NCBI GenBank assembly: GCA_026168805.1
Contig: JAPFDS010000075.1
Location: 124,001 to 188,000, forward strand
Length of the DNA stretch: 64,000 bases
DNA from: Caryophanales bacterium
GTDB lineage: Bacteria; Bacillota; Bacilli; Bacillales; Amphibacillaceae
Direction: 5' to 3'
The translations under genes and the position numbers were made by a program. The notes under the pieces are model-generated. The model was not told the DNA's origin. It saw nothing but the letters and a program-made list of their open reading frames with translations, and ran no database searches. Positions 20,910-51,076 of the stretch are shown here, in pieces. Positions within the stretch are counted from its first letter, which is position 1. Every line of letters starts with the position of its first letter.

Positions 20910-20938
20910 AGAGGCTCCTCCTTATTTTCTATCTATTT

Positions 20939-20989
20939 AGTGAATTTCATAATACCTATTGTACGCTCGAGCAATTATAAAATTCTCTC
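20939..20989. repeat. Probable internally deleted copy of the 116-bp hairpin repeat
   Basis: The first 24 bases (AGTGAATTTCATAATAC...) match the left end of the repeats at 27673 and 50944 (reverse) at about 22 positions, and the last 18 bases resemble their right end (AATTAT-AAATTC). The central 65 or so bases holding the inner stem are missing. It lies in the hfq-miaA gap. Likely, but the right end is diverged. Confidence 0.5.
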
Positions 20990-27047: not shown

Positions 27048-27602
27048 TTAATCATGTTGTTTTTTATTCATGAAATGAGGGTTAATGTGTTTTAAGTCTT
27101 CATCAGACACCGATTGCTTATAATGTCTTTGTTCTTTTTTTGGTTCTACACATACATTTATTGTCGTTTCCCCAATTACTTTTACTTCAAATTCACGTTC
27201 AACTTTTACTAAAATATCTTTTCCTTTATCACAAATCCAGCATTTTAAACACGTAGGTTGTTGAATGACGTCAGCTATTACGTCAACCGTTGACCCAAAA
27301 CATTTCGAGTCGATGGATGAAAGTGATACAACATCACAATATTTCACCCGTTCAACGAGTACCTCTGTAGATGTGTTGTCATTGTACGAGTACCATACGT
27401 TTATATCATAACTTCCATGTATTTCAACTTTATCTTTTGATTTCTTTTTTGCACTATAGCTATGATTAATGATCCAGCACCCTAGAATACTTGATGGTTT
27501 ATGCGTAGGCGAAATCGTATGAACGGATGTTTCACATGTATGACCTTCTCCACAAACTGCTTTCGTAATGATTTCTCTAAAGTCTTTATTTGAATATGCC
27601 AT
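27048..27602 (-). CDS. cotE: Outer spore coat morphogenetic protein CotE
   Basis: Directs assembly of the outer spore coat in the mother cell. The 184-residue protein is recognised by REIITKAV, the central KPSSILGCWIINHSY, INVWYSY, VERVKYCDV and VEREF/VIGET segments. The ATG at 27602 follows AGGAGG; an ORF start 17 codons earlier is not used. Two departures from B. subtilis are clear: it has nine cysteines, and the strongly acidic C-terminal tail is replaced by a neutral-to-basic one, though DLKHINPHF keeps the end motif. The order ricA-cotE-mutS matches B. subtilis. A 116-bp repeat lies just upstream. Confidence 0.93.
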   Translation of the reverse strand: MAYSNKDFREIITKAVCGEGHTCETSVHTISPTHKPSSILGCWIINHSYSAKKKSKDKVEIHGSYDINVWYSYNDNTSTEVLVERVKYCDVVSLSSIDSKCFGSTVDVIADVIQQPTCLKCWICDKGKDILVKVEREFEVKVIGETTINVCVEPKKEQRHYKQSVSDEDLKHINPHFMNKKQHD

Positions 27603-27672
27603 AGATTCGTATACCTCCTCTTTTGTCATAATTACTTTATGCAAGACATACACCTAAAGTGCATAGCAATTT

Positions 27673-27788
27673 AATGAATTTCATAATACGTATTTTAGGC
27701 TAAGCCACTTCAGCATGTAGTTTCGTTAAACCTTTCGAAACTACATGTTGTATTGACATAGCTGAATTCGGTAATTATGAAATTCACT
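27673..27788 (+). repeat. 116-bp palindromic repeat, copy A
   Basis: Terminal inverted repeats TGAATTTCATAAT / ATTATGAAATTCA (13 bp, perfect) enclose an inner stem CATGTAGTTTCG / CGAAACTACATG (12 bp, perfect) with a 10-base loop, so nearly the whole unit can fold into one hairpin. The reverse complement of 50944-51059 matches it at about 100 of 116 positions without gaps. It encodes no protein. It lies between the cotE start and the ricA terminator. It looks like a small non-autonomous mobile element (MITE-like). Confidence 0.88.
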
Positions 27789-27814
27789 CAATTATGAAAA
27801 GAAAGTATAAGAAA

Positions 27815-27843: not shown

Positions 27844-28278
27844 TTAACTACATGATTCTGCTGGTCCCTTGTTCTTTACCTTAGAACCTGTTTCACCTGT
27901 TAATAAGTCACCGCCAGTGGAAGTAACTATTTCTTTTGTTACTTCGCGCGCAATTGTACCAGTAATCAGTTGTAGGACATCATTTACAACGAGTTGTATT
28001 TCCTTAAACTCTGCTACTACTGGAATTTCATCAAGCTCCGTTTGGAGACGATCAAGTTGTTCTTCAACAGCTGCTAGAGCTTCTTTTTTGTTATATGCTT
28101 GCAAGTTTACAGCTTGCTTTTGCAAAGCTTTTATTTTTCGAATATTATCTTGCACTTTTTTATTTTCATTTATTTTTGCTTCTAATTTTTTAAAGCGGTC
28201 AACTTCTTCTATGTTCGCAAGTTTACTTGCCAAACTTTTAGCTTCATCTAATACTTCTTTTCTTGAATAATATGTCAT
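27844..28278 (-). CDS. ricA: RicA family protein (YmcA)
   Basis: A 144-residue helical protein of the YmcA/YlbF superfamily. With RicF and RicT it forms the Y-complex, which stimulates the phosphorelay and RNase Y-dependent mRNA maturation in B. subtilis. Most of the protein is predicted helix and coiled coil (about residues 5-115), with the conserved RKIKALQKQAVNLQAY. The only cysteine is two residues from the end (ESCS). It starts one base after miaB, as a coupled pair, and is followed by a terminator. RNase Y, its functional partner, lies 3 kb away in this window. Confidence 0.92.
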   Translation of the reverse strand: MTYYSRKEVLDEAKSLASKLANIEEVDRFKKLEAKINENKKVQDNIRKIKALQKQAVNLQAYNKKEALAAVEEQLDRLQTELDEIPVVAEFKEIQLVVNDVLQLITGTIAREVTKEIVTSTGGDLLTGETGSKVKNKGPAESCS

Positions 28279-50882: not shown

Positions 50883-50943
50883 CTGCTGACCCTCCTCTTT
50901 TCCATAAGTCTATGAACAAGCAGGACAAGTTATGATGCATCCG

Positions 50944-51059
50944 AATAAATTTCATAATTACCAAAATCAGCTAAGCCAATACACCATGTAGTTTTGAAAG
51001 GATCAACGAAACTACATGGTAAAGTGGCTTAGCAGAAAATACGTATGATGAAATTCACT
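50944..51059 (-). repeat. 116-bp palindromic repeat, copy B
   Basis: Its reverse complement aligns with 27673-27788 end to end at about 100 of 116 positions, no gaps. The outer inverted repeats (AAATTTCAT / ATGAAATT) have drifted a little, but the inner arms pair even better than in copy A (GCTAAGCCA and ACCATGTAGTTT on both sides). It lies between the ylxY start and the pnp terminator and codes for nothing. Confidence 0.88.
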
Positions 51060-51076
51060 AATCCGTTAAAAATAGA

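Follow-up and report, generated by a model that had tools for sequence, protein, structure and literature searches.

What is a long hairpin doing twice, in opposite orientations, in a single 64-kb stretch of bacterial DNA (the window, as we call the whole of the stretch that was analysed)? The initial annotation had noticed that positions 27673-27788 match the reverse complement of 50944-51059 at about 100 of 116 positions, and had compared the structure with that of a MITE or a hairpin RNA. The match is real: without gaps, exactly 100 of the 116 positions are identical. In our opinion, the repeat is a non-coding MITE of 118 bp, which has inverted repeats at its ends, is flanked by target-site duplications (TSDs) of 4 bp and is likely moved in trans by an IS1182-family transposase of the same genome; we would put this reading at a little over nine chances in ten. 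The MITE-like interpretation is supported by dispersed copies, by TSDs, by a transposase gene between the same ends and by relatives that lack the element next to cotE, the part played by the transposase being judged from sequence comparison.

The unit of 116 bp, as first described, stands as a core but is not the whole element. Alignment of 41 copies from the same genome with their flanks added one base on each side, usually T on one side and C on the other, and it is this alignment that sets the edges. Copy A occupies 27672-27789 on the plus strand, between AATT duplications at 27668-27671 and 27790-27793. Copy B lies in the opposite orientation at 50943-51060 on the minus strand, is identical to copy A at 102 of 118 positions, and has ATCC on its low-coordinate side (50939-50942) and its high-coordinate side (51061-51064). 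The 13-bp perfect terminal repeat previously read in copy A is indeed there (TGAATTTCATAAT and ATTATGAAATTCA), and each copy does fold into one long hairpin: the computed energies are -42.2 kcal/mol for copy A on the plus strand (z -8.65) and -45.5 kcal/mol for copy B on the minus strand (z -8.96), and none of 200 shuffles was as good in either case. Both copies are intergenic, as had been stated, copy A between a gene for a YlbF/YmcA-domain protein (27844-28278) and cotE, copy B between pnp and ylxY, and terminator-like hairpins, judged by eye, adjoin both of them. The window also holds a third, short copy, a 52-bp relative at 20938-20989 on the plus strand between miaA and hfq; it has the same ends (the second with two mismatches) and TATT on both sides, and it is missing from the covariance-model list described below. 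Copy A gave no match in either a plasmid collection or a phage collection.

The repeat is by no means confined to these two places. In the 3.24-Mb draft genome, copy A matches 41 distinct places by BLAST (79 matches in all, because a palindrome is hit on the opposite strand as well). Allowing one mismatch, the end motif RTGAATTTCATAATW occurs 116 + 99 times in this genome, against 1 + 0 times for the reversed control. A covariance model was also built from 72 elements; 74 had been extracted, and two (L081:2270-2386 and L085:2087-2204) were omitted from the alignment since their orientation looked wrong. With 150 of 2907 first-look candidates scored, the model gives at least 145 matches, which represent at least 85 distinct places, the three weakest of them doubtful (E about 0.001). 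Among the matches listed, 72 places are of 110 bp or more and 13 are shorter than 100 bp. The short copies (52-85 bp) retain both ends and would be internal deletions; an exact 4-bp repeat flanks 9 of the 14 that were listed. A pair of copies joined only by homologous flanks, which would have spoken against a dispersed element, is thus not what the genome contains: there are dozens of copies, and similarity ends at the element edges.

A direct repeat, constant at 4 bp in length, bounds the element and is exact in 28 of the 41 aligned copies; its mean identity is 0.88, compared with 0.49 for randomly paired flanks (z 12.9). In larger sets the TSDs, which the initial annotation had named among the things to look for, are exact in 45 of 67 elements of this genome and in 66 of 92 from named species. 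Between them lies an element of 52-119 bp with terminal inverted repeats and no transposase gene. In copies with exact TSDs the first duplicated base is A at 64% of the 45 own sites and 71% of the 66 named-species sites, and the fourth base is T at 96% and 95%. At the cotE site four aligned relatives (G143, G058, G151 and G092) have no element, and their sequence is conserved up to the insertion point; these are distant relatives, not the sister strains originally envisaged. In the pnp-ylxY gap, among five relatives with both flanks matched, three are shorter by 116, 114 and 205 bp and two are longer; the gap itself does not align cleanly, which makes this second site no more than suggestive. 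As a separate observation, the sequence upstream of cotE at window positions 27600-27671 (TTTATGCAAGACA...ACCTAAAGTGCATA), which runs as far as the point where copy A is inserted, is strongly conserved in the same four relatives, as one would expect of a promoter region.

Which enzyme would move such an element? A transposase with matching terminal repeats, as the initial annotation suggested seeking, does exist: a gene of the IS1182 family lies between the same ends in this genome and in relatives. Five contigs of the genome break just inside the same terminal repeat, and an identical sequence then leads into a reading frame. There are two intact IS copies with the ends of the element, on contigs C61 (1564 bp, TSD ACTT) and C59 (1565 bp, TSD ACAT), whose transposases score 290.5 and 283.9 bits against the NCBIfam IS1182 cut-off of 270; the copies at the five contig ends are broken. 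Among 159 genomes of the taxonomic family, 36 have a relative of the transposase at E 1e-30. Of 30 IS loci returned we examined the 17 with full or nearly full matches (one of them, L213, being the C59 copy itself). In 16 of the 17 both sides carry the end repeat, mismatched at no more than two positions, the remaining one being truncated; the TSDs of these 16 are an exact 4 bp in nine, an exact 5 bp in two and, a point against our reading, neither in five. Two IS left ends (L112 and L113) also contain the short palindrome CCCTT..AAGGG, immediately inward of the left terminal repeat and ahead of the transposase gene.

The similarity between element and IS is confined to the ends, up to about 24-26 bp, and comparison with the IS interior gave no match that reached 20 bp at an E value under 0.1. 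An origin of the element as an internal deletion derivative of an IS1182-type IS was rejected, its interior being unrelated to the IS. It also counts against our reading that the base at the T end is T in the element but G in the IS. Across genomes the two co-occur only weakly: the IS is matched at 1e-30 in 4 of the 12 listed element-bearing genomes, two of them (G014 and G155) with fragments only, versus 32 of the 147 others. The weak co-occurrence would be explained if the IS were lost once a burst is over, although this is no proof of dependence. The mechanism we have in mind is that the IS1182-family transposase would bind the ends of the element and insert it where the DNA is rich in A and T, with a stagger of 4 bp and a preference resembling ANNT.

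The distribution of the element is wide but patchy. At E 0.001 the covariance model finds it in at least 12 of the same 159 family genomes and in at least 9 of 46 genera, both counts being lower bounds because 23 candidates were scored per genome and the filters were stricter. Five genomes (the own genome, G010, G014, G071 and G113) have at least 10 matches each by the model, and only these five were matched by BLAST at E 1e-6 among the family genomes. For the other genome of the same genus, no element match is among the model matches listed at E 0.001. In a scan of named GTDB contigs, the 80 loci listed come from species that include Oceanobacillus alkalisoli, Oceanobacillus indicireducens, Aquibacillus rhizosphaerae, Aquibacillus halophilus and Aquibacillus saliphilus, as well as a Pseudogracilibacillus MAG and one contig labelled Candidatus Sphingobacterium. 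The last is a 3.3-kb MAG contig assigned to Candidatus Sphingobacterium stercoripullorum, with a copy (L138:1960-2077) about 81% like the nearest element in the set; it is probably a misbinned Bacillota contig.

The age of the copies seems to differ between hosts. In O. alkalisoli the median identity to the nearest copy is 99.2%, 35 of 66 elements have another copy at least 99% identical, and exact TSDs flank 52 of the 66. Because its copies are nearly identical, movement in this species looks recent, in the manner of a burst. The own-genome copies, with a median nearest-copy identity of 90.7% and exact TSDs in 45 of 67, are on this measure older than those of O. alkalisoli.

Other explanations have to be considered. 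A local duplication of about 116 bp with inversion would also leave two oppositely oriented copies, here separated by 23 kb, but the similarity stops at the element edges, the TSDs differ (AATT versus ATCC) and dozens of copies are on other contigs; we rejected this candidate, and its probability is virtually nil. It is also conceivable that another enzyme moves the element, or that the element is a landing pad which the IS replaces, as was proposed for IS1272 of the IS1182 family. According to PMC5678879, IS1272 replaces stem-loops without TSDs, whereas both the IS and the element here carry 4-bp TSDs. Further, stems and complementarity at the target sites show no excess over shuffles (45 + 66 sites). 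Replacement of the IS1272 type, at a palindromic target and with no TSD, was rejected accordingly, since TSDs are present and there is no palindromic target signal. An exact swap of the element for the IS between existing TSDs is compatible with the data; taken together, we consider such scenarios exceedingly unlikely.

The most serious alternative is that these are dispersed hairpin RNAs or 3'-end elements, REP- or BOX-like, under selection for a host function such as termination or message stability, with mobility secondary. The long hairpin with its paired changes speaks for it, and so does an excess of copies at gene 3' ends. Of 71 own copies, 67 have no overlap of 25 bp or more with a called ORF, and after rejoining the flanks only 3 of 67 own elements and 4 of 92 from named species fall well within one. 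The excess concerns the 8 bp next to gene 3' ends, with 24 versus 10.5 expected among 63 own elements and 17 versus 9.7 among 84 from named species, the expected values being rough, as they come from a simple ORF caller (at least 90 aa). However, by the same rough expectation gene 5' ends are depleted (1 versus 9.9 own; 3 versus 8.2 named-species), which fits purging of harmful insertions, and the TSDs, the IS-like ends and the patchy spread outlined above point to mobility. A scan of the 64-kb window against Rfam 15 gave no match at the gathering score, so that a named RNA family was rejected as well. We regard a host function of this kind as highly unlikely. If the repeat is a MITE, its copies would persist mainly in gene gaps, often beside stop codons, since insertions in such places are nearly harmless.

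Does the hairpin itself matter? Over the 72 aligned elements 89.5% of cells are paired, versus 85.0% after shuffling, and pairing falls to 30-40% when the partner is slid by 1-3 columns. There are 131 two-sided changes versus 43.6 in column shuffles, which ignore relatedness (0 of 500 as high); 18 pairs show such a change versus 13.6, a number that 5 of 500 shuffles attain, and covariation scores 0.142 versus 0.074. The structure behind these pair counts leans towards the same sequences, as it is the RNAalifold result with RIBOSUM scoring (-50.5 for the 72-row alignment) plus three hand-filled pairs; default RNAalifold on this alignment gives almost no structure (-0.03 kcal/mol). In the inner stems, two-sided changes number 35 in the own genome (shuffle mean 10.8, largest 18) and 48 in other genomes (mean 22.0, largest 31). 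Own-genome variability is 7-8% in the 12-bp inner stem versus 13-14% in the spacers and loop. Strict constraint is argued against by the arm middles, the most variable parts (29% left and 16% right in the own genome), and by two column pairs, 38/85 and 40/83, that fail to pair in 48 and 38 of the 72 sequences. One may tentatively suppose that the inner stem has a function in the mobile element, being recognised as folded DNA or RNA in IS1182-type transposition; the arms would therefore change in sequence between genera and yet remain complementary. We think this rather doubtful, and slightly more so because the arm middles vary. Template-switching mutation inside the palindrome could produce paired changes with no selection at all.

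Is an element of this kind new? The bcr repeats of the Bacillus cereus group are likewise dispersed, hairpin-forming and mobile-like elements of Bacillaceae; by description they are longer and have a 5-bp duplication. MITEs dependent on IS1182 and flanked by 4-bp repeats are already published. MITEPye1 of Paracoccus yeei is non-autonomous, with terminal repeats of about 18 bp resembling those of the IS1182-family ISPye18, 4-bp direct repeats, a mostly intergenic location and a long predicted stem-loop, and its mobilisation in trans was proposed (PMC11578231). Our element resembles it, by description, in the IS1182-type ends, the 4-bp repeats, the intergenic bias and the long stem-loop. It differs in phylum and in number: MITEPye1 has 1-3 copies per chromosome (PMC11578231), while here there are at least 85 model-matched places, and several genera. 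In Methanosarcina acetivorans an ISMac2 (IS1182) MITE has 160 bp, 14 copies, 26-bp inverted repeats and a 4-bp direct repeat, and a second MITE assigned to ISMac2 has 169 bp, 7 copies and no direct repeat (PMC3852290). The first shares with ours, again by description, an IS1182 partner and a 4-bp repeat, and differs in having an archaeal host. Agreement between a MITE and its IS at the borders only, over less than 20 nt, is common according to the same source (PMC3852290). The IS1182-family ISs, such as ISPse1 (1653 bp, 16-bp inverted repeats, 4-bp direct repeat; PMC3281130) and IS1272, have inverted ends, as the element does, ISPse1 also sharing the 4-bp duplication, but they encode a transposase and the element does not.

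Among openly licensed literature, judged by titles and abstract openings, we found no Bacillaceae MITE tied to IS1182. What is new here is the existence of this family in Bacillaceae, the number of its copies, its occurrence in several genera and the measured paired changes. An otherwise unexplained hairpin gains defined boundaries and a likely partner, and a high-copy, multi-genus case joins the few published IS1182-dependent MITEs. The older copies here, the apparently fresh burst in O. alkalisoli and intact copies of the partner IS offer a clean system for asking whether a MITE depends on its fold in order to move.

Some minor observations concern the arrangement of individual copies. Elements occur in pairs 40-100 bp apart within one gene gap, as in L015:1500-1617 with L015:1656-1773 and L081:2057-2174 with L081:2270-2386. 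Stop codons lie a few bases from many copies (for instance L069:1955-2072, L073:3156-3273 and L004:1498-1615), and in some copies the stop codon is seemingly supplied by the element's own end (TAATGA, or T|GA).
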